Below, piece after piece: positions 2-43,966 of a stretch of 64,000 nt of DNA (within the stretch, counting starts at the first letter, position 1; each line of letters starts with the position of its first letter). Below the pieces are notes generated by a model that saw only the letters and a list, made by a program, of their open reading frames with translations, had not been told where the DNA came from and made no database searches. Origin of the DNA: Sulfurimonas hydrogeniphila (GTDB lineage Bacteria > Campylobacterota > Campylobacteria > Campylobacterales > Sulfurimonadaceae); assembly GCF_009068765.1 (NCBI RefSeq), contig NZ_CP035534.1:1240001-1304000 (forward strand). The letters are read 5' to 3'. A program made the position numbers and the translations under genes.

Positions 2-673
2 ACGATAGAAAAAATAGATGAAGTGCGCTACATCTCAAACTTTTCAAGCGGAAAAATGGCATCGGCTTTGGCAACGGCACTCTATTTAAAAGGGGCAGAT
101 GTTAATCTCATCGCCACAAAATTTGACCGTGACCTGCCTGTCAATATGCATAAAATAGACGTAGAAGACACACAGGAGATGCTTGAGTATCTTGTCGATT
201 CCATACGCATTGCAAAAAAAGGCAAGCTTTCAAAAGCGACACTCATACGTGACGAGCATATTCATCTTATCCAAAAAAAGCCTTATCTCTTTATGGCAGC
301 GGCGGTGAGTGACTATGTTCCTGAATTTCCTCAAAATACCAAACTTAAAAAAGAGGATTTGGGTGAAAAGTGGGAGTTGCATCTCAAAAAAAATATTGAT
401 ATTTTAAGTACCATCGACAAAGAAGGCATTACAGTCATAGGTTTTAAAGCAGAAATGGACAAAGAAAAAGCCGAAAAAAATGCAAAAAAGATGTTACAGG
501 AGAAAAAACTTGACGCGGTCTGTCTCAATGTTTTACAAAATGCCTCAAGCTTTGGCAGTGACGAAAATGAAATAGACTTTATTACACCACAAAAAAATGT
601 GCACATACCAAAAGCGGACAAATTGCATGTATCTTTTGAAATAATCAAAAATGCAAAAGAGCTGCAAGAATAG
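2..673 (+). CDS. coaBC: Phosphopantothenate-cysteine ligase part of CoaBC, 5' truncated by window edge
   Basis: The reading frame is open from base 2, so this is the 3' part of a longer gene. The first residues seen include VRYISNFSSGKM, the conserved segment at the start of the CoaB (ligase) domain. A later AAAVSDYVPEF segment and a GFKAE segment also fit CoaB, which joins cysteine to 4'-phosphopantothenate in coenzyme A synthesis. Bacterial CoaBC is about 400 residues, so the flavin-dependent decarboxylase half lies before the window. The stop is followed directly by uppS, suggesting an operon. The family call is secure; whether the upstream CoaC domain is present cannot be seen. Confidence 0.93.
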   Translation, partial: TIEKIDEVRYISNFSSGKMASALATALYLKGADVNLIATKFDRDLPVNMHKIDVEDTQEMLEYLVDSIRIAKKGKLSKATLIRDEHIHLIQKKPYLFMAAAVSDYVPEFPQNTKLKKEDLGEKWELHLKKNIDILSTIDKEGITVIGFKAEMDKEKAEKNAKKMLQEKKLDAVCLNVLQNASSFGSDENEIDFITPQKNVHIPKADKLHVSFEIIKNAKELQE

Positions 674-1354
674 ATGATGAACAAGGCCAGACATATAGCC
701 ATCATAATGGACGGAAATGGACGATGGGCAGAGCAACAGGGCAAAAAAAGAGTCAAAGGGCATGAAGCAGGTGCAAAAGTCGTCAAAGCAATCACAACCT
801 ATTGTTCAAATGATGAAGATATAGAACGCCTGACACTTTATGCCTTTTCAACGGAAAACTGGAAAAGACCACGTCTCGAAGTTGAGTTTTTAATGAAACT
901 TTTGGAAAAATATCTCAAAGACGAATTGCCCTCTTACTTACAGAACAATGTCAGATTTGAAGCTATCGGTGACATTCGTGCTTTTTCAAAATCACTGCAA
1001 AAAACCATACAGACGGTAGAAGAAAAAACGGCGCATTGTGACGGATTGGTGCAGAGTCTCGCCCTGAACTACGGTGCACAGGATGAGATTCTTCGTGCTA
1101 TAAATTCTTTAAAAAAACAGGATGAGAACATCACACTGGAGATGCTTAACAATGCACTTGACTGCAAAGTAGCCGTAGATATACTCATTCGTACCGGAGG
1201 AGACAAGCGGCTTTCAAACTTTCTGCTTTGGCAGTCGGCATATGCAGAGCTTTTTTTTACAGATACGCTCTGGCCGGACTTTACATGTAAAGAATTAGAA
1301 AAAATTCTACAAAAATTTACAAAAATTGAAAGACGATTTGGTGGTTTAAAATGA
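674..1354 (+). CDS. uppS: Undecaprenyl diphosphate synthase (cis-prenyltransferase)
   Basis: A 226-residue protein. It condenses isopentenyl diphosphate with farnesyl diphosphate to give the C55 lipid carrier used for peptidoglycan and surface polysaccharides. The family signature HIAIIMDGNGRWA is at residues 7-19, with the catalytic Asp at 13, and FSTENW and the C-terminal RTGGD...LSNFLLWQSAYAE block are present. Length is normal for the family. It begins immediately after the coaBC stop and overlaps the following prepilin peptidase gene by four bases (ATGA), so the genes are probably co-translated. Two adjacent ATG codons make the exact first residue uncertain by one. Confidence 0.96.
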   Translation: MMNKARHIAIIMDGNGRWAEQQGKKRVKGHEAGAKVVKAITTYCSNDEDIERLTLYAFSTENWKRPRLEVEFLMKLLEKYLKDELPSYLQNNVRFEAIGDIRAFSKSLQKTIQTVEEKTAHCDGLVQSLALNYGAQDEILRAINSLKKQDENITLEMLNNALDCKVAVDILIRTGGDKRLSNFLLWQSAYAELFFTDTLWPDFTCKELEKILQKFTKIERRFGGLK

Positions 1355-2169
1355 TGGAACTTGGCATAGCTTTTATACTCGGTATACTTTTTGGTTCTTT
1401 TTTAAATGTTGTCATTCTTCGCATACCAAAGGGAGAAAGCGTTGTTTTTGATGCGTCACACTGCCCTGCATGCAATGAAAAGCTCAAACCCTGGCATAAC
1501 ATTCCGCTTTTTTCATGGATTTTTCTAGCAGGAAAATGTGCCTACTGCAAATCACATATTTCTGTGCAGTACCCGCTTATAGAACTTCTCTCAGGTTTTA
1601 TTTTTGTCATTCTTGCCAATAAATTCGGACTGAATCTACCGGCATTTTTCATAGCTTTGAGTTTTTTGATGCTTTTAGCGCTTTCGGTTATAGATTTCAG
1701 ATACAAAATGGTACCCGATTCACTCAACCTCTTGGCTATTTTCTTTGCCATACTCGGCGCATGGAGTATTCAAGGTTTTGTTCTTAACCTGGAAAACGCC
1801 CTCCTTTTTGCCGGTGGTTTTACACTCCTGCGTTTTACTCTTTCTTATTACTTAACATCATCTGTATTTAGAGCCGGACTAAAAACGAAAACATCCTGGA
1901 ACAGGCACTATGACAGAACACCTTTTATAGAAGCTATGGGAGAAGGCGACATTATGGTAGCGGCTGCAATGGGCGCACTTTTGGGAGTCAAACTTGGTCT
2001 TGTTGCCATTTTTCTCTCAGCCCTCTTGGCTTTGCCGGTTATGCTCTTGCTTCTTAACAAATCAAAAGAGGAACAACGCGTCCCCTTTGTGCCTTTTTTG
2101 GCACTTGCAACTTTCATAGTCTATGTGTATGATTCTCAAATACTCAGATACATCGAGGCAAACTACTAA
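1351..2169 (+). CDS. Prepilin peptidase (type IV leader peptidase, A24 family)
   Basis: A 272-residue polytopic inner-membrane aspartic protease that cleaves and N-methylates type IV prepilin-like or type II secretion pseudopilin precursors. The N-terminal cytoplasmic loop carries two Cys pairs (C38/C41 and C63/C66), typical of the methylase/zinc part. The two catalytic aspartates are visible at D115 (in IDFRYKMVPD) and D200 (in GEGD). Several hydrophobic helices follow. The start overlaps the uppS stop by four bases and the stop overlaps the next gene by one base (TAATG). No pilin substrate gene is in the window. Confidence 0.94.
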   Translation: MMELGIAFILGILFGSFLNVVILRIPKGESVVFDASHCPACNEKLKPWHNIPLFSWIFLAGKCAYCKSHISVQYPLIELLSGFIFVILANKFGLNLPAFFIALSFLMLLALSVIDFRYKMVPDSLNLLAIFFAILGAWSIQGFVLNLENALLFAGGFTLLRFTLSYYLTSSVFRAGLKTKTSWNRHYDRTPFIEAMGEGDIMVAAAMGALLGVKLGLVAIFLSALLALPVMLLLLNKSKEEQRVPFVPFLALATFIVYVYDSQILRYIEANY

Positions 2170-8056: not shown

Positions 8057-9391
8057 CTACTTCACTTCCTTTTCTAAAAGATATTCTTTATAGTATTTCG
8101 CCTTTTGATACCCGTATTTTGCTTCTGTCATTTGGGCATAGACCAGCTCTTTTTTTGCCTGTGTATCCAACAAATCCACAAGAGAAAGCGCATTGTTTTC
8201 ATACTTGATTTGTTGGGCTTTTTCTATCTCCTGCAAAAGTTCATACTGACTTTGCAAAGCTGTATAGTCTGCCTGTGCGATTTCTATTTTGGAATTTGCA
8301 ATTTTTAAATTTTTTTCCAACTCCAACCGTGTTATGCTTTTGTCTATTTTTGACTGCATCAGAGCAATCTTTTCTTTGGCTACATCTGCACTTTTTGCTC
8401 CGAAATCATAAAGGTTCCACTGCAGGTGCAAACCTATCTGCCATACATTTTCACTGTTAAAGTCATTTTTGTTTAAATATGTCACACCTGTCTGAGCAAA
8501 AGTATTTGTCGTTGCATTGGGTCCCATACTGTAGCCGTAATATGCACTGAAATCCACCTTTGGATAGTACAGTGCCTCTGCGGTACGAACTCTTTTTTGT
8601 GCTATATTGCTTTTTAGTGCAGCAATTTTTAATCGGCTTAAGCTTTTAAGGTCCGGTTCGCCCTCTTGCAATCCCTCAAAAGTGACACTGACCTCTTCTG
8701 CTTTGTCAAATTTGTCCGAGGCAATCATTTGCGAAAGAGAAGCTTTTAAAATTGCTATATTTGAGGTTATCTTATTTTTATTTGCCACTGCTTCCACATA
8801 GGCATTTTTTGCCTCCAGCATGTCAAGTTTTGATTTTCCTCCAAGCTTATATGCTTTTTGTATATACATGTAAAGACTCTTTTTTGCCTCTATATACTTT
8901 TTTTGTGCTTTGAGCTGCTCCTGCAGTGATAAAAGAGAGAGATAAATATTTTCTACATTGTAAATGAGCTCTGCTTTTGCAAGTTTTATTTTAAAAAGAC
9001 TGTTTTTATATGCCAAATCCGATATTTTATAGCTGTTTTGTTTGGCAAATCCGTCAAAAAGCGTCACATTGTAAGAGATACCCGTAGAGACCAAATCATT
9101 TGTTGTTGGCATCTCATAGGCACCTGTTGGAGAAGAAACGATTTGCATTGGTGTTAACGGCACCAGTGTTCGTGCATTGTTGTAATGGTCATAATTGAGT
9201 GTAGCATCAAATCGACCAAGGTTCTGTGCCTGCTTTATACGCCTGCTTTTTTGTGAAACCTCTTTATCCAAAAAGATTTTTTTCAAAGAGTTATTGTGCT
9301 GTAATGCCTCATCTATTGTCTCCTGCAGACTCATCGCTTGCAGCGAAAGAGGCAAAAGAAAACCTAAAACCAGTTTTTGTATCATGTTCAT
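8057..9391 (-). CDS. TolC-like outer-membrane efflux channel
   Basis: A 444-residue protein with a cleavable signal peptide (two possible ATG starts, residues 1 and 3; hydrophobic core LVLGFLLPLSLQA). It has the two-fold repeated helical layout of the outer-membrane efflux protein family, with long Ala/Lys/Leu-rich coiled coils and short beta segments. Trimers form the outer-membrane barrel and periplasmic tunnel. It is the promoter-proximal gene of the efflux operon; the 127 bases before it separate it from the divergent rubredoxin gene and should hold both promoters. Confidence 0.92.
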   Translation of the reverse strand: MNMIQKLVLGFLLPLSLQAMSLQETIDEALQHNNSLKKIFLDKEVSQKSRRIKQAQNLGRFDATLNYDHYNNARTLVPLTPMQIVSSPTGAYEMPTTNDLVSTGISYNVTLFDGFAKQNSYKISDLAYKNSLFKIKLAKAELIYNVENIYLSLLSLQEQLKAQKKYIEAKKSLYMYIQKAYKLGGKSKLDMLEAKNAYVEAVANKNKITSNIAILKASLSQMIASDKFDKAEEVSVTFEGLQEGEPDLKSLSRLKIAALKSNIAQKRVRTAEALYYPKVDFSAYYGYSMGPNATTNTFAQTGVTYLNKNDFNSENVWQIGLHLQWNLYDFGAKSADVAKEKIALMQSKIDKSITRLELEKNLKIANSKIEIAQADYTALQSQYELLQEIEKAQQIKYENNALSLVDLLDTQAKKELVYAQMTEAKYGYQKAKYYKEYLLEKEVK

Positions 9392-30352: not shown

Positions 30353-31710
30353 GAGCCTGTAAACTAAACTGTGTAAATCACCTCCAGCCCATTTAACTAC
30401 CTTGTATATTTTTCCATAATTTCACTGAAAAATATACAAAGTTGAGGGTAAATTTCACTCCAATTTCTAAGTCCGTTACGATTCCATTTTTCCTGAACCT
30501 CCTGAGTTGAGAGATAAAGCACCTTAAAAGCTGCATCAATCGTAGGAAATGAGCCTTTGGATTTTGTGCGTCTTTTAATGCTTGAATTGAGCGATTCAAT
30601 AGGATTTGTGGTATAAATCAACTTTCTGATCGGCTTAGGATATTTGAAAAAAGTTGCCAGCTCATTCCAGTGATTTGTCCAAGACTGTGTAATATGAGGA
30701 TACTTATTGCCCCAAATATCATTAAATTCCAAAAGTGCCTCTTGTGCATCTTCTTCAGTAGTTGCTGTATAGATCATTTTTAAATCAGCTGCTACTGCCT
30801 TTCTATCCTTCCAAGAGACATAACGAAGTGAACTTCTAATCTGATGGACAATACAACGTTGTATCTCTGCTTTTGGGTAAACAGCCTCAATAGCTTCATT
30901 GAAACCGTTAAGTCCGTCTATGGCAAAAATAAGTACATCATCCACACCACGGTTTTTTAGTTCGTTAAGTAGTGAGAGCCAATATTTGCTTGTTTCATTT
31001 TCACCAATCCAAATACCTAATATCTCTTTTTTTCCTTCAAGTGTGACTCCTAGCATAATATATGCAGCTATGTTTTTTACAACTCTCTCCACTCTTATTT
31101 TGAGCACAGTAGCATCCATAAAGACTATTGGATAGATTGGTTCGAGTGGACGGTTCTGCCACTCTTTTGCTTTCTCTATAATTGTATCGGTGATATTTGA
31201 GATTGTTTGTTCTGAAAGTTGATAACCGTAAAGATCATCAAGGTGGTGCTGTATATCTCTGACACTCATCCCTTTAGTATAAAGTGAAAGTATAAGATCT
31301 TCACTGCCGTTTAGAAGTGTTTCCCGTTTCTTTACAAGCTGTGGTTCAAAACTTCCATCTCTATCTCGTGGTATTGCAACATCTACATCACCATATTTCG
31401 ATTTTAGAGTCTTTTTATTTGTACCGTTACGATAGTTGAAGTTATCTGACTTCTGATGCTTCTCGTAACCTAAATGATCATCAAGTTCTACTTCAGTCGC
31501 TGTTTGAATTGTTTCTCGAAGAAGAGTTTTAAAATCATCCAATATCCCATCGAGTGAAATCTCTTTGCCTTCTTTTATTTGTCTACGTAGCTCTTCTTTA
31601 TTTAAAATATCTATCTGTAAATCCTTCAAATAAATTTATCGCTAATAGCAATTTTTAAGCCTATCTGATAAATTAGTTTTTTGGATTTACACAGTTGTTT
31701 TTACACCCTC
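30353..31710. mobile_element. IS256-family insertion sequence
   Basis: Imperfect terminal inverted repeats are visible: GAGCCTGTAAAC...AACTGTGTAAATC at 30353-30379, and at 31684-31710 GATTTACACAGTT followed by the matching arm ending in CTC. The inner 13 bases are identical. One transposase gene lies between. I find no matching target duplication outside the ends (ATTTTT on the left versus GATAAA on the right), so the element may have recombined after insertion. It separates the integration module from the degenerate WYL/macro region. Confidence 0.82.
30397..31629 (-). CDS. IS256-family (mutator-type) transposase
   Basis: A 410-residue transposase of the IS256/Mutator group. The N-terminal part carries the LGYEKHQKSDNFNYRNGTN segment. 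The DDE residues appear in order: Asp in IVFMDATVLKIR, Asp in IFAIDGLNGFNEA and Glu in NPIESLNSSIKRRTKSKG. Length matches full family members and no frameshift is seen, so the copy is probably active or recently so. Confidence 0.95.
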   Translation of the reverse strand: MKDLQIDILNKEELRRQIKEGKEISLDGILDDFKTLLRETIQTATEVELDDHLGYEKHQKSDNFNYRNGTNKKTLKSKYGDVDVAIPRDRDGSFEPQLVKKRETLLNGSEDLILSLYTKGMSVRDIQHHLDDLYGYQLSEQTISNITDTIIEKAKEWQNRPLEPIYPIVFMDATVLKIRVERVVKNIAAYIMLGVTLEGKKEILGIWIGENETSKYWLSLLNELKNRGVDDVLIFAIDGLNGFNEAIEAVYPKAEIQRCIVHQIRSSLRYVSWKDRKAVAADLKMIYTATTEEDAQEALLEFNDIWGNKYPHITQSWTNHWNELATFFKYPKPIRKLIYTTNPIESLNSSIKRRTKSKGSFPTIDAAFKVLYLSTQEVQEKWNRNGLRNWSEIYPQLCIFFSEIMEKYTR

Positions 31711-31728: not shown

Positions 31729-32667
31729 TTATTCCAAATGCTCCCGATTTGAAATATCATTTAAATATTCTTTTAAATCATCATCAATAATATCTTGAAT
31801 CCATTGTGGTTCTATAATGTGCAAATGAGGTATCCAATATTTAACTATGGGCAGTATCTCCATCTCATGTGTTATCTTAATACTAAACTCCATTGTTCCA
31901 TCACTATTGAGACACTCAACTATTTGTGTGGAAAGTGGTCTTCGCTTAAAATATTTTGCAGCATTTTCATCAGCATACAATTTTACTTCAAAAGGCTCTG
32001 TACTTTTACTAAACCAGATAGATAGAGAGTTTTGAAGTAACTCTTCAAGCTCAGTCTCCACCGCAAAGTGTTTATTCAATCAAATCGGTTGTGAAATATT
32101 TTTAAGATAATATTTTCTTAGTTCATCATCTTTTTTTGTAATGAGATACCAAAAGCCCTCATAGTTTGCTATTTTCAAGGGCTGTAAGGTTGTTTTATAA
32201 GGCTTTTTACGTTCATTATCATAAATACACTCTATCTCTCTTTTTTCTTTTATGGCTTGTTCTAAGATCTGTATATCTGCTAGTTTATCACTGATATCTT
32301 CAATATTGAGTTTTGCATAAATAGGATTAAAATCTTCATTTTTGATTTTTGAGAGAAGTGCATGCGCTCTTGCAGAAAAAGAACCGCCTATGCCCTCTGT
32401 GATCTTCTCAAGAATATCCAAGATAATCTCATCTTCTAAAGATCTGCTCTTTTCTATTTTATACCCATCTTGCATCTTCCATTTTTTCTTCTCTTGATAA
32501 ATTGGAAATGAGACTAAACGCTCATTAAAATCTCTTTGTATGGTTCTTTCACTTGTATTAAACTCTTTTGCAAGTTCTTTCACTGAAAGAGCTTCTCCAT
32601 CATTTAGTCGTGAAAGAATAGTTGTAAGTCTCGTCAAAATCTTGTCATAGTCGTGTTTATATGCCAT
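31729..32667 (-). pseudogene. WYL-domain transcriptional regulator interrupted by an in-frame TGA
   Basis: The minus-strand frame from 32667 encodes a winged HTH (LSVKELAKEFNTSERTIQRDF at about residues 23-43), then the WYL-like region with IECIYDNERKKPYKTTLQPLK and YEGFWYLITK. It hits TGA at 32082-32080 after ISQPI and continues in the same frame (LNKHFAVE...) to 31729 through the C-terminal domain. One base change separates it from an intact protein of about 312 residues. WYL regulators often control phage-defence operons. It overlaps the upstream macro-domain gene by 11 bases. Readthrough is possible but unproven. Confidence 0.8.
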
Positions 32668-34197: not shown

Positions 34198-34902
34198 CTA
34201 AATTTCTTCAATTCTGGCAATAAAGGATACAAAAGGATAAATACGATTTCCGTTTATAAATTCATGCTTATATACTACAGGGTCAATGAACTTCATTGTT
34301 CCTATAAAATTTGCTCTATATTTTTCAGCATTATAGCACTCATATTCTTGAAATAATTTATTTACATAGTCATGTGCCTTCATATCTAAAATACTATGTT
34401 TTTTATCGCTAAATAAGTATGTAGGCATAATCATCAAAGCTATCTTAAAAACATTAAATTCTTCGTAATTAAAATAATCTCCGATCGTTTTTCTATTAAT
34501 ATCAGAAATTTGTTCAATCGCTTTTTCCCATTCAGAATCTGTATATTTTGCGATAGCATTATTTTTACTATTAAAAGAATGTTTTAGTTCAATTAGATAA
34601 ATATTATTTCCTTTTGTAGTAGCAATATCTAAAAATCTTTGATTATTTTTTGCTTTTTTAAAGGGTTGTTCCAACCAAATGTTACCTGTATATTTGTGAA
34701 TTGCTGGAATGATTACAGAATTAACTTGTTTTTCACCATATATGAAAGGAAACTCTCCCCAGTGTTTATAAAATTCTAATGATTCTTCAGCAAATAACTC
34801 TATTGTACTATGTAAAAACTTTCTCATACTTCTAATTCCATTGCCATCAACTAATGTATCTTTTGTACTTATCTCAATTATATCATTCATGTTTATCTCC
34901 AA
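34198..34902 (-). CDS. Hypothetical protein with possible PD-(D/E)XK-like core
   Basis: A 234-residue soluble protein. The middle segment QRFLDIATTKGNNIYLIELKHSF (residues about 88-110) has the spacing of a PD-(D/E)XK nuclease site: an Asp, then a strand ending Glu-Leu-Lys. The rest is not recognised. It overlaps the DUF2779 gene stop by 20 bases, so the two are co-expressed. Met5 is an alternative start. A nuclease role in defence or repair is an inference from the motif and neighbours. Confidence 0.55.
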   Translation of the reverse strand: MEINMNDIIEISTKDTLVDGNGIRSMRKFLHSTIELFAEESLEFYKHWGEFPFIYGEKQVNSVIIPAIHKYTGNIWLEQPFKKAKNNQRFLDIATTKGNNIYLIELKHSFNSKNNAIAKYTDSEWEKAIEQISDINRKTIGDYFNYEEFNVFKIALMIMPTYLFSDKKHSILDMKAHDYVNKLFQEYECYNAEKYRANFIGTMKFIDPVVYKHEFINGNRIYPFVSFIARIEEI

Positions 34903-36367
34903 TTAAATTATGTAACTTCTCCCAAATCCGAACCATTGCCAAAGTATCTAACCGACAATAAGCAAGTAAGTCCTTTTTTATCTCAGCTAATTGATTTTTA
35001 TCTTTTAGCAAATATAAATTAGCAAAAGTATCCATGGCATCACCACCATTTTGAATACTTCCAAGCTTTTTATAGTCTAGTTCATCATCATCTGGAAACA
35101 GTGTTGGTAAAACAACTTTTATGGAGTATTTACCATTAAATTTTGGATGATAGTAATGTTTGTGCTGGAATGGGTATGCAAGGTCTATAAACCTCTCATT
35201 TAAAGCTAAAAGTTTATCACTCAAATCTGGAAAGAGTAAAGCCAAGTTTTTAATCTGTGTTATTTCAAATGATTGGTTAAAAGCGATGATTGAACCAGTT
35301 GGTGTAATATCTTTAAGCATTTGTTCTGAAAGAGCTCTTCTTGGATCACTATTTTCATCTCCTAAAAACTCTTTATGCTCTAATTTTCCATTTTCATGCA
35401 ATATATGGAGTGAATACTGAAAAGGCATCTGTGCATAAGGTCGTTGATTGTCAAATCTTGGTATGGCATTTTGAAAAGTCTCAAAATCAAAGAAATTTAT
35501 AGGATATTCAATCGTGTCTAAAAATTCTTTTATTTTAGGTTTATCTATTTTTATCTTTTGTGACTTATGATGTTGTACCTGTAATGATGCATTGGATCCT
35601 AAATGAAAATCATCAGGTATGTCATCTATACTTAGTATTCCTTGTTCATACAGTTTCCACTGCTTTCCCATTGCATACGAGAGATCAAAAACAGAGTTCT
35701 TTTTAGGTATATGTGCCCAACAATATGAAATAAAATCACATTGATTTGGACTGCTACAGTGTTTTCCAATATCTATCGCAGGCATTTGATTTTCCAACAT
35801 TTGCTCATAAATCTGAAGATTTTTCAATACATCTGATTGTTTTTGTAGAACTTCTTGTGTAATATTTACAATTGTAAAGAGCTTTTGTACATCGAGAGCA
35901 CCATCTCTTACATAATTGTTATTAATATGTACAATATAAGCATTTTTCAGTGAAATAGTTTGAGAAAGAGCATACCATTGAACAGATGCATCATCTATAT
36001 AGTAATCTTTTACCTCCGTACTTCCCTTCACCTCATAGATATCCCAAGCATCACCATTTTTTACCAAAATATCTGCCATAGCAAAAACACCACCTGCACT
36101 AAAAGCAGCTTCATATATAACTTTAGCTCCATTATCTATATGCTCTTGTGTCTTTTCCATCATCCTATTAAAATTGAAATTATCAAACTCAATCTCAACA
36201 CCATTTGGAAACAACTCTTTTGCCAAATCTCCTACTTCATAACCTTTGTCAAATAAAGACTCTTGCGCTTTATCTGGAGTATCACGGAGTTCTGGTTTGT
36301 GTTTGTAGAGCCATAGGAATTTGTGACATTGTAAGCCTCTTATGTATTGGGATTTAGAGAGGGTCAT
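34883..36367 (-). CDS. DUF2779 protein (RecB/Cas4-like plus DnaQ-like nuclease)
   Basis: A 494-residue protein. The N-terminal half begins LSKSQYIRGLQCHKFLWLYK and has a RecB/Cas4-like layout, with an Asp and EVKGS strand (DAWDIYEVKGS) and a cysteine cluster around residues 205-220 (CSSPNQCDFISYC) that could hold an iron-sulfur cluster. The C-terminal half has INFFDFETFQNAIPRF and IAFNQSFE, typical of the DnaQ-type exonuclease DEDD core found with DUF2779. It is probably a DNA-processing nuclease of a defence module. Confidence 0.82.
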   Translation of the reverse strand: MTLSKSQYIRGLQCHKFLWLYKHKPELRDTPDKAQESLFDKGYEVGDLAKELFPNGVEIEFDNFNFNRMMEKTQEHIDNGAKVIYEAAFSAGGVFAMADILVKNGDAWDIYEVKGSTEVKDYYIDDASVQWYALSQTISLKNAYIVHINNNYVRDGALDVQKLFTIVNITQEVLQKQSDVLKNLQIYEQMLENQMPAIDIGKHCSSPNQCDFISYCWAHIPKKNSVFDLSYAMGKQWKLYEQGILSIDDIPDDFHLGSNASLQVQHHKSQKIKIDKPKIKEFLDTIEYPINFFDFETFQNAIPRFDNQRPYAQMPFQYSLHILHENGKLEHKEFLGDENSDPRRALSEQMLKDITPTGSIIAFNQSFEITQIKNLALLFPDLSDKLLALNERFIDLAYPFQHKHYYHPKFNGKYSIKVVLPTLFPDDDELDYKKLGSIQNGGDAMDTFANLYLLKDKNQLAEIKKDLLAYCRLDTLAMVRIWEKLHNLIGDKHE

Positions 36368-36395: not shown

Positions 36396-38354
36396 CTATT
36401 TGGAGGCTGTATCTATGAAATCAAGTAGTAACAAATCTTCTTTGTCAGTTTCCCATCCCTCAAAATCGATATCCCATCTTTTTACTAAAAAATCAAGTGA
36501 TTGTTCACCTCTATCTTTTATTGTACTTGGTGTCCAATTAGAATAGCTTGCAATTTCTATTTCACTATATGACCCATTAAAAAATCCAACCTTGTTACCT
36601 TTTTTATCAATATGACTCTTTTTAAAATCAAAACATTTATTTTGAAGTTCAGAGTTTTTTGAACGAGCAAGCAAAACTAAATTTCCGAGGTTATGTAATA
36701 GTTTTATTTTCTCTTTTTTAGTATAAGTGTCGAATACTGATTTCCAACATTTATCGTTAGGTGTTTGAGGATAAATATGTTCGATAGTATCTTCTTTTTT
36801 ACGCTTACTAAAATCAGACCAGTGAACTTTTTGGTTTCCTTTGGCTTTTTTTTGTAAATATAATTCATACTCATACAAAAAATATCTTAATCCATTCCAA
36901 CTAAAATATCCTTCATCTTTTTCAAAGCGCTCTTTTATGTAACTACTAAACTTATCAAGGTTAAACCAACCATAATAAGTGTACTCATCCCCTTCGCCAT
37001 CTTCACCATCTGTCAATTGCTCTATAATTTCAATAACTTTCTGTAAAGTTAAATCATCCTTTTTAAAATAGAAATCATTTGCTAGTCTATAAAAATAATT
37101 ATTCTGAGTATTTGACGATCTTTGAGAAAGTTTAAAAACGAGAAAAATAAATCGTTCAGCTGCTTTCAAAAGAAGTAAAAAATCTTCTTCATCATGCTTG
37201 GCCATTGATGCCATAATTAAGGGAGGGAATGCCCCCATTCCTACTCTGTTAAGTTTTTGAAGCCACTCTTTGGTTTCGTCAGTATAGGTAGAAAATTCTG
37301 GATTAGAAATATAGAACCAAGACTTAACACTATCTGAAAGGCTATCAATGTACTTTTTGATATCATCAAGTGTTACATTTCCTTCGATTGTTTCCTTCGC
37401 CGTAAATTTTTTGTTTAGCAAAAATTTTGCATAAGCATTGGCTTCATTTCTGTCATACTTGAAATACATAATCCAATGGTTCCGTAAAAAATCGTCATCA
37501 TCCATCGCATTATCTTTATTTTTTCCAAGGTATTCATAGATAGTTTTCCATGTTTCATTAATGTCTTTTCTAAGTCTTGTTCTTAATGATTCATTTACTT
37601 CCAACAATGTAGATAAATAAATAAGTCTATTTTTGAGAAGTTCTAAGCTTGACAAAGCCTTACCTCTGTTATTCATAGTTTCAAATGTAACATAAACATC
37701 TAGTTCGTCATCAATTTCATACAGATTAAATTTAAACATTGTATTTATTTTTTTAAAGATGGAACCAAGTGCATCTCTATCCAAGTTTTTTAGTTTTTTA
37801 TGAAAATATTCTTTTGCTCTCTTGAGATTCGCAGTATAGAGAGTTTGCTCTGGCACTTTGTCAGAAGATGATGATTTCTGAGCTAAAATTTTTGTTTTAA
37901 AATACTCATCACTAGGATTATCACGTTCATACCCAAAAATATATGATTTATAGTTTTCTCCAAATGCTTGATATAAATATTTCTTTATCCAATATGTTTT
38001 TTCATTAAAATTAATACCTTTATCATCTGGAATAAAGTTTAATATTTCATTGATTAAAATAATGGCTGTAGTTAATCTTTGCTGACCATCTATAAGATAA
38101 AAGGCTTTAAAACCTCTTTCAAACAGCCACAAATCATCTTTCCATTGTTCATTATTAAGTATATTACTTTTGCTAACCTGTTCAACGGTGAGAAGACCAG
38201 TATAATGAATCTTATCATTTTTTAAATTCATTAAATCTTCCCAAAAATCATCCAATTGAATTATTCCCCAAGAATATCCCCGCTGAAAATCAGGTATTCT
38301 AAAAAACTTATCATTAAAAATTTCACTGAGAGATAGAAGTTTATTATCTGACAT
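36396..38354 (-). CDS. GmrSD-like DUF262/DUF1524 protein
   Basis: A 652-residue protein. The N-terminal DUF262 (ParB/Srx-like) domain has FRIPDFQRGYSWG at residues 17-29 and YLIDGQQRLTTAIILINEI near 90-110. The C-terminal DUF1524 His-Me finger nuclease domain has DTIEHIYPQTPND, then a LLHNLGNLVLLARSKNSELQ block around 575. This domain pair is that of the GmrSD/BrxU modification-dependent restriction enzymes that attack modified phage DNA. It lies about 100 bases after the FtsZ-like gene on the same strand. Confidence 0.88.
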   Translation of the reverse strand: MSDNKLLSLSEIFNDKFFRIPDFQRGYSWGIIQLDDFWEDLMNLKNDKIHYTGLLTVEQVSKSNILNNEQWKDDLWLFERGFKAFYLIDGQQRLTTAIILINEILNFIPDDKGINFNEKTYWIKKYLYQAFGENYKSYIFGYERDNPSDEYFKTKILAQKSSSSDKVPEQTLYTANLKRAKEYFHKKLKNLDRDALGSIFKKINTMFKFNLYEIDDELDVYVTFETMNNRGKALSSLELLKNRLIYLSTLLEVNESLRTRLRKDINETWKTIYEYLGKNKDNAMDDDDFLRNHWIMYFKYDRNEANAYAKFLLNKKFTAKETIEGNVTLDDIKKYIDSLSDSVKSWFYISNPEFSTYTDETKEWLQKLNRVGMGAFPPLIMASMAKHDEEDFLLLLKAAERFIFLVFKLSQRSSNTQNNYFYRLANDFYFKKDDLTLQKVIEIIEQLTDGEDGEGDEYTYYGWFNLDKFSSYIKERFEKDEGYFSWNGLRYFLYEYELYLQKKAKGNQKVHWSDFSKRKKEDTIEHIYPQTPNDKCWKSVFDTYTKKEKIKLLHNLGNLVLLARSKNSELQNKCFDFKKSHIDKKGNKVGFFNGSYSEIEIASYSNWTPSTIKDRGEQSLDFLVKRWDIDFEGWETDKEDLLLLDFIDTASK

Positions 38355-38458: not shown

Positions 38459-38992
38459 TCATTTCCCGTAGTCAATATTATTAGCAACTATATATTTATT
38501 GCCATTTTTTTCAAATCCCGTGAACAAAATACTAGCCTTTACATAACTCTTACTAACTGATTTGTCCGTTGTAGTTCCCCACATAATGTCAGATTCATCG
38601 TGAGCATTTTCATGTATTATTTCCATTGCTTCAGCAATATCCTCAATAGAAAAATCAGGATGTATAGTAAAATGTATTAATATGCCTGACATTTTATTTA
38701 TCAAGTTATATTCCAATGATGAGTTTTCAATCGATCGCCTTATAGCTTCAGCTGCTGAATTTTTGCCATCAAATTCTCCAATACCACTAAATGCTACACC
38801 ACCATGATTGACAATAACTTCAAAATCAGCCAAATCAAGACTCATATCATTATCTCCACTCGGTAAAACTACTCCGAGCATTCCTTTTACAGCTTTTTTT
38901 ATTTCATCACTGAACTCTGTATTGTCTATATATGCACATAGCTCTTTCTTGTGTAAATCTGCATCTGCTTGGGTTGTTTCAACTTTTTTCAT
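38459..38992 (-). CDS. FtsZ C-terminal-domain-only protein
   Basis: A 177-residue protein from ATG 38992. Residues about 27-162 align by eye with the second half of FtsZ. FSDEIKKAVKGM matches the end of the core helix, SLDLADFEVIV (51-61) the T7 loop, GVAFSGIGEFDGKNSAAEAI the next helix region, GILIHFTIHPDF and EIIHENAHDESDIMWGTTTD the activation domain, and ILFTGFEKN the last strand. The GTP-binding half (GGGTGTG) and the C-terminal FtsA-binding peptide are absent. The T7 loop keeps both Asp but has Ser for the usual Asn. It could bind a host FtsZ nucleotide face and cap filaments; that is inference. Its ATG overlaps the stop of the sigma-4-like gene. Confidence 0.8.
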   Translation of the reverse strand: MKKVETTQADADLHKKELCAYIDNTEFSDEIKKAVKGMLGVVLPSGDNDMSLDLADFEVIVNHGGVAFSGIGEFDGKNSAAEAIRRSIENSSLEYNLINKMSGILIHFTIHPDFSIEDIAEAMEIIHENAHDESDIMWGTTTDKSVSKSYVKASILFTGFEKNGNKYIVANNIDYGK

Positions 38993-39153
38993 CAACTTTC
39001 TCCTGACACATATTCTCTTAATTTTTTACCAATCTTTGGAGACTTGAGTTTTTTTAAGGCTTGTGCTTCTATTTGTCTCACTCGTTCTCTGGTAATCCCC
39101 AATATCTTGGCTATCTCTTCTAGAGTATAATCCCCATTTTTTATTGATTTCAT
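38992..39153 (-). CDS. Sigma-70 region 4-like small HTH protein
   Basis: A 53-residue protein consisting almost only of a sigma region 4.2 helix-turn-helix: TLEEIAKILGITRERVRQIE at residues 10-29, then AQALKKLKSPK. GGAGGGAGAA upstream is a strong ribosome-binding site. The TGA stop shares its A with the ATG of the FtsZ-like gene (TGATG arrangement), implying translational coupling. It lacks sigma region 2, so it cannot be a full sigma factor. It may bind -35-like DNA or RNA polymerase as a regulator of this operon. Confidence 0.8.
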   Translation of the reverse strand: MKSIKNGDYTLEEIAKILGITRERVRQIEAQALKKLKSPKIGKKLREYVSGES

Positions 39154-39204: not shown

Positions 39205-41337
39205 TTAAGCCAAAAAACCCATAACATTTTTATGCACTTCATTTTTAACAGCCACTTCATCTTCAAGCCTTTGGATAAAATCTTCAACACTTTTAAGAGG
39301 ATTAAATCTATTTTGTCTTGCAACAGCTGCAAAATCCCCTGGTGCCAGATTTCTCAAAGATTTTACTTTTTGTTTTTGCATATCTGCAAGTTTTTTAAAC
39401 CCAAACTCTTTTACATATTCGCTAAAGAGTTTGAGTGATTGTTCTGCTTTGAGATACTCAAACTCTAGTTTTAAATCAAATCGTCTTAGACTTGCTTTAT
39501 CAAGATTGTCCATCAGGTTTGTGGTGGCTATGAAGATACCATTAAAATTTTCCATCTGCACCAACATCTCATTTACCTGTGTCACTTCCCATGAGTTTTG
39601 AGCCTGTGTTCTGTCACTTAAAAAGCTATCTACTTCATCAAAGACAAGTACGGCATCTTCAGCTTCAGCCTCTTTAAAAGCATTAGCAATATTTTGTTCG
39701 GTGCCTCCTACCCATTTACTTATGAGGTCACTTCCCTTTTTTATAATACATGGTTTGTTGAGTTGTTTGGCTATATACTTCCCATAAGCACTCTTTCCTG
39801 TTCCTGGTGCTCCATAGAGACAAAGCCTTGCGTTTTTACTCTCTTTTATCCCAAGTGTAAGCTTCTCTAAATCTGTACTTGTGTTGATATAGCTCGGATT
39901 ATAAATATTTTTCGCAATCTCTATGCCACTACCTTTTTCTAACTCTTTATGCCCCTGGGCTTTTAGCGTATTGCTTACAAGATGTATAAATGCATCAGAG
40001 TTTTTCTCTTCACCTATAACTTCCAACACTTTAGATGCTCGTGTGATAAGTGCTGGAGCTACATCTTCATGCTCTGCTAATGTCTGAATACTTGCCGTAT
40101 CAAGATGCCCATTGCTATAACTCTCTATAATTTTTTCCCGTTTAGATTTTGGAGGGATTGGCAACTCTATACTCATATCAAATCTTCTTACAAGTGCAGG
40201 GTCTAAGGCATTAATGTTATTAGTAATCCAGATAGTTGGAATTGTATTTGTCTCTAACACTTTGTTAATCCATGCTTTATCTTTTTGACGGCTTGAACTA
40301 CCAAAAAGCATACTAAAAAAACTACTTCCACCACCTTGAAAGATATCTTCTGCTTCATCATACATTAGAAGTGTCTTTTTATCTCCAAGGAGTGCTTGAG
40401 CTAACCTATAGGATTTGAGTCTCTTCTCCCCATCTATAGACTCATCATCTTCATCTGTGTAGCTTACTTCAAAAAGATTAAGTTTGAGTTTTTTAGCCAA
40501 GGTTTTAGCAAGTTCAGTTTTTCCTGTTCCAGGTGCGCCATATAGAAGTATGTTGACACCCTCTTGTTTTTGTTTAATACTTTTTTTAAGATAAGGTAGT
40601 AACAGATTAATATCTTCTTTGATATGCTCATAATCTTTAAGCTTCAAACTCCCTTTTGAGCATCTACTTACTGATTCTTTGAGCATTACAGATATATCTT
40701 CATCCAGATTCAAGAGATTATCTATAAAAGTATCACTAATTGAATCTAGTTTTCTATCGAGTGAATTTGTATTGCGTTTATCTATAAGTACCAAAGAAGA
40801 TTTGGTAAGTTTAGCTTTTGAAGAGAGCGCTTTTTTTACTTCATCTTTTGGAATATTTAATATGATACTTAAAGCTCTTTTAACTTGTGTCGTATTGAGT
40901 TCATGTCCCAAAAGCTCTACAGCATCATCTAAAATCTCATACTGTTTTATTAAAACACTAAACTCTAAAATTTGCTCTTCATAACGATTTAGATTCATCA
41001 AAGAGGAGATTTGCGCGATATTTGTTGACAAAATTGGATGTGAAGAGAATCTTTTTTGTTGTTCGAGTTTTTCAAGTTTTTGTGCAAAATATTCTAAGAT
41101 ATCCTCACGCGTAAACTTTTCATTTTCTAAAAACTTATTTCCACCCAAAAAAGCGAAAATATTATCTTTTAAAATATAGTCATCTTTATCGATAAACTCC
41201 TTATGTCCTCCCAATTTTAAAAGTATTCGTAGTGTCCATAAGCTTGCCTTATCGATAAGGTTTTTGTCTATATAATCTTCTTTATTTATCTCTAATGTAT
41301 ATCTTCTTTGTTCTCTTTTTCTTATAGTTTTCATCAT
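39205..41337 (-). CDS. Double-AAA ATPase
   Basis: A 710-residue protein. An N-terminal helical part (1-250) is followed by two AAA modules: Walker A LLYGAPGTGKTELAK near 267 with Walker B LLMYDEAEDIF and WITNNINALDPALVRRFD. The second has CLYGAPGTGKSAYGK near 505 with VLVFDEVDSFLSDR and ATTNLMDNLDKASLRRFD. Both modules keep the DE Walker B and arginine-finger-like residues. It resembles CDC48/FtsH-type remodelling ATPases. It lies 51 bases upstream of the sigma-4-like/FtsZ-like pair on the same strand and could remodel or load one of the neighbouring proteins. Confidence 0.85.
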   Translation of the reverse strand: MMKTIRKREQRRYTLEINKEDYIDKNLIDKASLWTLRILLKLGGHKEFIDKDDYILKDNIFAFLGGNKFLENEKFTREDILEYFAQKLEKLEQQKRFSSHPILSTNIAQISSLMNLNRYEEQILEFSVLIKQYEILDDAVELLGHELNTTQVKRALSIILNIPKDEVKKALSSKAKLTKSSLVLIDKRNTNSLDRKLDSISDTFIDNLLNLDEDISVMLKESVSRCSKGSLKLKDYEHIKEDINLLLPYLKKSIKQKQEGVNILLYGAPGTGKTELAKTLAKKLKLNLFEVSYTDEDDESIDGEKRLKSYRLAQALLGDKKTLLMYDEAEDIFQGGGSSFFSMLFGSSSRQKDKAWINKVLETNTIPTIWITNNINALDPALVRRFDMSIELPIPPKSKREKIIESYSNGHLDTASIQTLAEHEDVAPALITRASKVLEVIGEEKNSDAFIHLVSNTLKAQGHKELEKGSGIEIAKNIYNPSYINTSTDLEKLTLGIKESKNARLCLYGAPGTGKSAYGKYIAKQLNKPCIIKKGSDLISKWVGGTEQNIANAFKEAEAEDAVLVFDEVDSFLSDRTQAQNSWEVTQVNEMLVQMENFNGIFIATTNLMDNLDKASLRRFDLKLEFEYLKAEQSLKLFSEYVKEFGFKKLADMQKQKVKSLRNLAPGDFAAVARQNRFNPLKSVEDFIQRLEDEVAVKNEVHKNVMGFLA

Positions 41338-43780: not shown

Positions 43781-43966
43781 TTATTTTAGCCCAGTAAAGA
43801 AAATAGTAACTTTAGCATAGTCTTTATTAAGAGCTTCATCAGTAGTTGTCCCCCAAGCTATATCGACTTTATAGTCAATATTTTCGTGTATAATACTCAC
43901 TGCTTCAGGAATATTCATCAGAGAAAATAAATCATACCTTGTCTAATATGTTTTATTAAGAAACAT
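43781..43966 (-). pseudogene. Remnant of a second FtsZ C-terminal-like gene
   Basis: The last 46 codons (from ATG 43918) read EAVSIIHENIDYKVDIAWGT and TTDEALNKDYAKVTIFFTG, matching by eye EAMEIIHENAHDESDIMWGT and TTDKSVSKSYVKASILFTG of the intact FtsZ-like protein. Upstream, weaker similarity (LNKTY, then TRYDLFSL) is interrupted by TAG. Only the end of the domain survives. It shows the family was duplicated within the island. Confidence 0.72.

Follow-up and report, generated by a model that had tools for sequence, protein, structure and literature searches.

The ring at which a bacterial cell divides is built by FtsZ, a protein regarded as a polymer subunit that cannot be divided. The passages of PMC8936486 that deal with the filament place H10, S9, H8 and T7 among the contacts of the upper side, where the aspartates D210 and D213 of the upper subunit (S. 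aureus numbering) hold a water above the GTP of the lower one. According to the same passages, the catalytic water is placed by D210, the D213N substitution suppresses assembly, and mutations of the bottom (T7) interface are toxic, unlike those of the top interface. In the N-domain of FtsZ, the toxin CbtA attaches to the H6/H7 loop, which lies at the longitudinal interface, as reported in the sections of PMC5624674 on binding. Members of the FtsZ/tubulin superfamily have in addition been described as rare components of NTP-dependent conflict systems, in an account whose passages on these components name no split halves (PMC7159879).

The window analysed here, a stretch of 64,000 nt from the 2.34-Mb, single-contig genome of Sulfurimonas hydrogeniphila (G000), encodes a protein that is best explained as the C-terminal half of FtsZ, retained as a functional component of a module of defence type. 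The features of the window to which we refer are:

38459..38992, minus strand: FtsZ C-terminal-domain-only (FtsZ-CTD) protein, 177 aa from ATG, with Pfam FtsZ_C and the FtsZ fold
38992..39153, minus strand: sigma-4 mini-protein, 53 aa (Pfam Sigma70_r4, 6.2e-14)
39205..41337, minus strand: tandem AAA ATPase, 710 aa (Pfam AAA, 1.1e-46, in two stretches)
36396..38354, minus strand: GmrSD-type restriction protein (Pfam GmrSD_N, 2.3e-28; GmrSD_C, 4.1e-17)
34883..36367, minus strand: DUF2779 protein, the gene after GmrSD
31729..32667, minus strand: WYL regulator, in reading frames of 195 and 116 aa with one in-frame stop
43784..43924, minus strand: second FtsZ C-terminal remnant, a 53-codon frame (47% identity over 58 residues)

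In its longest form, the FtsZ-CTD open reading frame spans 38459-38995 on the minus strand, with 178 codons and a TTG start. The ATG one codon inside is the better start, giving 177 aa, because it is preceded by an AGGAG site that lies within the sigma-4 gene; the stop of the sigma-4 gene and this start overlap in the sequence TGATG, as the first-pass annotation of this DNA had read them. The Pfam model FtsZ_C matches residues 66-162 (E 5.6e-15; score 55.9 bits, cut-off 27), and we could not detect by Pfam a Tubulin/GTPase domain in the 178-aa form, nor any family besides FtsZ_C at a threshold of 0.1. Accordingly, the NCBIfam ftsZ model (TIGR00065) is covered at positions 192-329 of 353 only, with a score of 67.6 bits as compared with a cut-off of 295.2. 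An AlphaFold model of the protein (pLDDT 72.3, pTM 0.71), when compared with the PDB by Foldseek, retrieved FtsZ in 50 of the 50 matches listed (best E 1.1e-11), and a profile of eight members searched against the PDB found FtsZ chains exclusively (49 distinct sequences, best 1.5e-18). The resemblance to the C-terminal half of FtsZ, noted at first by eye, is thus borne out by both domain model and fold, as is the absence of the GTP-binding half. The chain begins in the second half of what we take to be helix H7 (helix names partly after PMC8936486), keeps the T7 loop and the entire C-terminal domain, and ends 14 residues past TGFEKN. None of the families of PADLOC-DB 2.0.0 matched it at 1e-3. 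The genome also carries an intact chromosomal ftsZ (G000:C1 898168-899280; 370 aa; L029), to whose product the window protein is 47% identical over residues 32-164.

Along the minus strand, the genes follow in the order AAA ATPase, sigma-4 mini-protein, FtsZ-CTD, GmrSD protein and DUF2779 protein, and Pfam upholds the earlier naming of a double AAA ATPase and a GmrSD-like protein as neighbours, in a neighbourhood of defence type. The sigma-4 mini-protein consists of sigma-70 region 4.2 (helix-turn-helix) alone; over residues 7-50 it shares 64% identity with what is presumably the RpoD of this genome, a 663-aa frame, and in PADLOC it matches the end of MzaA. The AAA gene lies 51 nt upstream of the sigma-4 gene, and its product, which has a helical N-terminal region, is closest to p97/Cdc48, Rix7 and NVL by both sequence and fold matches in the PDB, and matches IetA-type AAA profiles in PADLOC; its structural model is of moderate quality (pLDDT 72.8, pTM 0.49), and a tandem AAA fold is all it reveals. 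The GmrSD-type protein corresponds to HEC-06 in PADLOC (6.1e-48), and its membership in the module is uncertain. The interrupted WYL gene, 5.8 kb from the FtsZ-CTD gene, clusters with the WYL open reading frames of other loci; a transposase-like open reading frame (30397-31629, named by eye) adjoins it. The longer match of the remnant at 43784-43924 runs across stops. This remnant immediately precedes an REase-like gene (229 aa) and is separated by 4.8 kb from the intact FtsZ-CTD gene.

A profile search of 135 Sulfurimonas genomes found at least two FtsZ-CTD matches in 26 of them. Together with three proteins from other families of the same order (L018, L053, L054), the search results include at least 21 CTD-only proteins of 122-223 aa, 18 of which come from 17 Sulfurimonas genomes, making 21 open frames in 20 genomes. 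This class was defined with an upper length cut of 225 aa of our choice, and excludes a cut host FtsZ (L007), four cut or broken copies (L020, L021, L032, L044), a complete paralog and a weak match (both L045) and a tandem duplicate (L055). The count is a lower bound, as it covers regions retrieved from the matches listed, to the exclusion of the extra copies in four genomes (G062, G066, G003, G151). Four longer proteins that keep the CTD and have lost motifs in the GTPase half were counted separately: in L015 the second half of the Tubulin model is still matched (4.4e-18), in L038 the Tubulin match falls under the cut-off (8.7e-5), and in L016 and L019 no match to this model was found. The DIPAYMR-type tail motif was present in all nine Sulfurimonas host FtsZ proteins tested, as compared with 0/25 of the CTD-only or degenerate proteins, in line with the earlier observation that the tail binding FtsA/ZipA is missing.

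The 21 CTD-only proteins are highly divergent (mean pairwise identity 26.7%) and carry N-terminal extensions of 0-97 residues. Among six close members, all 15 pairs gave dN/dS values of 0.19-0.38, so that the CTD half is under purifying selection in this close clade. Outside the genus, an extra copy was found in 3/76 genomes of an 81-genome phylum sample (G162, G186, G197), the G162 copy being a partial tandem duplicate adjoining ftsZ that we kept out of the counts, and in 2/23 genomes (G045, G048) of another search. In a tree of 37 CTD sequences, in which 4 of 34 inner branches are well supported and the bootstrap had not settled, the window protein groups weakly (82/85) with L022, L031, L033, L034, L035 and L036, outside the host FtsZ proteins. 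Three scans of viral contigs gave no relative; a phage collection held 12 matching records, at 25-32% identity and all unannotated, and a fold search of BFVD returned one match below 1e-3, a phage FtsZ. Of plasmid records, 34 were matched, the best one showing a complete ftsZ beside ftsA and rsmH in a C. jejuni plasmid record.

Aligning the window protein (numbered from the TTG start) with characterized FtsZ proteins places D57 at D213 of S. aureus and D212 of E. coli, and D54 at D210 and D209, respectively; the window protein itself carries both of these T7 aspartates. Across the 21 CTD-only proteins, the D57 column holds D in 20 and E in one, the D54 column D in 17, the F109 column F in 20, and column 139, which belongs to strand S9, an F or a W in 18. 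When the compared columns are ranked by majority fraction, D57 and F109 occupy the first two places; by relative entropy D57 ranks sixth. The asparagine equivalent to S. aureus N208, a residue needed for assembly, is kept in 8/21, with a serine in the window protein. Interface columns are modestly more conserved than the rest (p = 0.019, one-sided), for a set picked after the alignment had been viewed. The persistence of the aspartates in a protein that has no GTP site of its own points to an action on the site of another subunit, although these residues, located at the start of helix H8, could be partly structural.

The other half of FtsZ also occurs as a separate protein. We found five GTPase-only halves with GTP motifs (L021, L058, L059, L069, L071), four of which have a clear N-terminal membrane segment (best 19-residue hydrophobic segment 2.66, 2.72, 2.41 and 2.85 in L021, L058, L069 and L071); the segment in L059 is weak and doubtful, at 1.54 as compared with 1.42 for host FtsZ. 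Not included in the five are two halves with degenerate motifs and no membrane segment (L018, L061), the second half in L045 and the short half of L060. In the NCBIfam ftsZ model the three halves tested cover positions 4-199 (L059), 19-199 (L021) and 17-188 (L058), and thus end where the window protein begins (192-329): the split of FtsZ is complementary. At L021 (genome G071) the order is AAA, GTPase half, sigma-4 and FtsZ-CTD, the last gene being frameshifted, and the GTPase half there, 257 aa long, has a hydrophobic N-terminus and no part of FtsZ other than the GTPase domain (Tubulin, 4.7e-25). In L069 and L071 the GTPase half overlaps the end of the AAA gene, and in L018, from another family, a single 3.8-kb contig carries a sigma-4 gene, a CTD half and the GTPase half, which is unanchored and degenerate in its motifs. 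Two further arrangements were observed: at L045 (3715-5616, plus strand), a two-domain FtsZ paralog of 459 aa, 73% identical to the host FtsZ of the window genome over 354 residues, is followed by the second, short FtsZ GTPase half, which has an extra N-terminal stretch, and at L061 of genome G045 (604-1988, minus strand) the degenerate GTPase half is flanked on one side by a short gene and on the other by genes that look, by eye, like a helicase/HNH pair.

In the majority of carrier genomes tested (21/27), exactly one Tubulin-domain match was detected at E 0.001, that of the host's own FtsZ. Additional FtsZ GTPase domains were found in G071, G152, G095, G005 and G045, and the window genome has, besides the host match, a broken GTPase-half remnant (C1:469022-469228; L028), with a WYL gene at a distance of about 11 kb. 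Not all carrier genomes are complete (for example G146, 65%; G118, 80%; G093, 81%), so a second half may be missing from the assembly. As 21/27 have no second domain, most CTD-only proteins have no evident GTPase partner other than host FtsZ, which argues that it may be their partner in the cell.

To describe the genes recurring beside FtsZ-CTD genes, we considered 29 loci with flanks within 8 kb, 313 kb in total. WYL proteins often regulate defence genes, and a WYL-type open reading frame occurred in 20/29 loci (23 frames, two of them pieces of the window gene), where about 0.14 would be expected from the density of 25 matches in 25 genomes of the genus; the ratio is rough because the two detection methods differ. 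In the remaining nine loci none was found within the stretch covered, and in L035 the WYL gene is interrupted as well. Other neighbours were the AAA protein (7 loci), a PD-(D/E)XK nuclease (5), DUF2779 (5), a 159-aa protein with no name (4) and a GIY-YIG-like protein (3, by eye, with no Pfam match), as well as SIR2, LRR and weakly matching dynamin-like proteins in one or few loci each. A PcfJ-like gene overlaps the CTD gene in L036 (6608-8538) and L053 (5608-7160), which belong to two families; PcfJ-like-looking genes were also seen by eye after the AAA gene in L067, L068, L070 and L072, and after the GTPase half in L069. In L017 (94-2654, plus strand), a 141-aa FtsZ-CTD gene lies beside a dynamin-like gene (Dynamin_N 3e-5, under the Pfam cut-off). 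Conversely, at least 20 full-length AAA genes were found in the 135 genomes of the genus, a count that may be low since the best eight candidates per genome were scored, and in 8/20 cases an FtsZ half lies no more than 4 kb away; of the 12 others, five are on contigs of at most 6.3 kb.

The coupling of the sigma-4 mini-protein to the FtsZ half, which the first-pass annotation had put forward, holds in part. Homologs 84-87% identical precede the FtsZ-CTD gene in three other genomes, and the two genes are found together again in L020, L021 and L022, as well as in L018, which is from another family and has other genes in between; but sigma-4 is present in only 5/29 FtsZ-CTD loci. Within the genus we examined six small sigma-4 genes, all of which adjoin an AAA gene (broken in one case) and two of which have no adjacent FtsZ half, so that sigma-4 tracks the AAA gene at least as well as it does the CTD gene. 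In L022 the sigma-4 gene (8349-8501, minus strand) has an in-frame TGA in its recognition region, next to a CTD frame that is open; at the position of the GTPase half of L021, this locus encodes a protein that combines a hydrophobic N-terminus with a cyclic-phosphate receiver domain (cREC).

The reading that we tentatively favour, and which we rate at slightly short of an even chance, is that the CTD half docks on host GTP-FtsZ, sequestering it or triggering its GTPase, and would in this way halt division within a defence-type module. The half retains the face that completes the GTPase site of a neighbour (the T7 loop, the start of H8 and strand S9) and has lost the parts for filament continuation and for FtsA recruitment. 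Most likely it would bind the nucleotide face of host GTP-FtsZ, competing for subunits with the end of a growing filament, and/or supply the two T7 aspartates in trans, such that GTP would be hydrolysed without a filament; once the module was switched on, the Z ring would fail and division would stop. At loci with the p97-like AAA protein, the CTD half might serve as an adaptor bringing the unfoldase to FtsZ, with the sigma-4 mini-protein as a candidate promoter-binding regulator and WYL proteins possibly controlling expression where present. Host-FtsZ binding, division arrest and AAA recruitment are putative activities of the CTD half, as is a role in phage defence, suggested by the WYL, GmrSD, PD-(D/E)XK and SIR2 genes in the neighbourhood. 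This docking model is favoured by the retained T7 aspartates, the low dN/dS, the predominance of carriers with a single GTPase domain, the four longer relatives in which the CTD is retained and motifs of the GTPase half are lost, the enrichment of WYL genes and the proximity of AAA genes to FtsZ halves. In addition, occupying the nucleotide face can inhibit FtsZ, as proposed for CbtA from its binding to H6/H7 (PMC5624674, in the passages on its mode of action), and a docked CTD would, by analogy, cover the longitudinal interface bound by CbtA. Against it stand the frequent loss of N208, the broken copies and the interrupted WYL genes. Simple capping is disfavoured because a CTD-only protein resembles the top-interface mutants and not the toxic bottom-interface ones, as these are described in excerpts of PMC8936486, and a single mechanism for all members is not assured, because the partners vary (AAA, PcfJ-like, GIY-YIG-like, LRR, PD-(D/E)XK, SIR2 and dynamin-like proteins). 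A more elaborate version, doubtful as a whole, would unite a soluble T7 half, an anchored GTP half, AAA, sigma-4.2 and WYL proteins in a split-FtsZ conflict system that dismantles the Z ring on infection or stress, with the T7 fragment as trans GTPase activator, sequestering agent and unfoldase adaptor.

The complementary break points could also mean that the two halves form a two-part GTPase of their own, a switch or scaffold apart from the host ring with an anchored N-terminal half and a soluble CTD, in which case the CTD-only loci would have lost the other half or would borrow it. Consistent with this, the halves adjoin in L021 and share a contig in L018, and most of the GTPase-only halves with GTP motifs are clearly membrane-segmented; we nonetheless consider it rather unlikely, given the many carriers that have no second GTPase domain, the mere remnant in the window genome, and the ratio of 21 CTD-only to five GTPase-only proteins (in searches most of which used the CTD). 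A partnership with FtsZ of any kind would be absent if the CTD fold had been reused as a generic binding domain. The highly divergent partners, the variable N-terminal extensions and the loss of N208 in 13/21 proteins agree with such reuse, which the retention of D57 and D54 makes unlikely. The same retention of catalytic residues speaks against a decoy or bait, where the half would imitate host FtsZ and be bound by phage inhibitors, possibly with the AAA module sensing the binding. Inhibitors that bind one or the other FtsZ domain do exist: the binding sites of SulA, MciZ and the N-domain of MinC lie in the FtsZ CTD, and that of CbtA in the N-domain (PMC5624674). The rapid divergence at the two loci beside hisS fits a decoy as well: between L041 and L047, hisS is 87% identical, WYL 61%, the nuclease 39.5% and FtsZ-CTD 27.7%, a sign of fast change or replacement of the CTD gene. 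A bait should, however, resemble the host protein, and with members averaging 27% identity this explanation has a small likelihood in our estimate.

A toxin-antitoxin-like pair, in which the FtsZ-CTD protein would be the toxin and sigma-4 its repressor or antitoxin, would account for the overlapping genes with the small DNA-binding protein first, and for the pairing kept in L020, L021 and L022 (L018 having intervening genes). Such a pair should be constant, and the scarcity of sigma-4 among FtsZ-CTD loci, the sigma-4 genes that adjoin AAA without an adjacent FtsZ half and the stop in the L022 sigma-4 gene beside an open CTD frame make it improbable. Finally, ordinary gene debris, that is, truncated ftsZ copies left by insertions, would fit the broken copies in L021 (a frameshift), in L044, at 43784-43924 of the window and at G000:C1:469022. 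As an explanation for the window protein, debris is very improbable, and a truncated copy of the chromosomal ftsZ was rejected: 21 open frames persist in 20 genomes, dN/dS in the close clade is below 0.4 and the catalytic residues are kept. The concern, raised at the outset, that this might be a lone truncated copy is therefore answered by its conserved occurrence elsewhere.

Complementary stand-alone halves, with the CTD under selection, would show that the GTP-binding and the GTPase-activating faces of FtsZ can be separated by evolution, and would be naturally occurring tools with which to study how filaments are polarized and how subunits are added, an open question. Should the halves prove to stop division, they would constitute a new class of FtsZ inhibitor, made of a piece of the target and linked to defence-type loci. 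The occurrence of CTD relatives and separate front halves in defence-type neighbourhoods suggests that fragments of the division protein serve the bacteria that make it as a switch or brake.

Compared with FtsZ itself (TIGR00065; PF00091 and PF12327), the window protein shares the CTD fold, the T7 loop and both catalytic aspartates, and differs in having no GTPase domain, no FtsA-binding tail and helix H7 in part only; unlike ordinary FtsZ, it is an extra copy beside defence-type genes, with under half of its CTD residues identical to those of the host protein. The CTD-only protein is outside every family tested, and its novelty rests on that, its function being putative; since Pfam and NCBIfam recognize it through FtsZ models alone and PADLOC has no model for it, its gene is liable to be annotated as a partial ftsZ. 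A search of the open-access literature by title and abstract, which is weak evidence of absence, found no paper on stand-alone FtsZ halves. Among the described relatives are the FtsZl1 proteins of Makarova and Koonin (PMC2875224), which, like the proteins described here, are extra FtsZ relatives beside a normal FtsZ and, like the GTPase-only halves, have no recognisable FtsZ C-terminal domain. As far as the sections of PMC2875224 on these families go, they are defined by the GTPase domain, which is absent from the CTD-only protein, no CTD-only partner of FtsZl1 is described, and most FtsZl1 operons carry a vWA gene. None was noticed at the loci studied here, and for nine window neighbours no vWA was found among the Pfam matches listed (for the AAA protein, the best 25 of 54). 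CbtA is, like the CTD half, a small protein proposed to act at the longitudinal interface of FtsZ, but it is not an FtsZ fragment and is a member of a toxin-antitoxin pair (PMC5624674, in its account of the toxin). SulA, MciZ and MinC, as presented in parts of PMC5624674 and PMC8936486, are protein inhibitors of FtsZ assembly, the role proposed here for the CTD half; they bind in the CTD, for instance near T7, whereas the CTD-only protein would bind on the opposite, nucleotide side.
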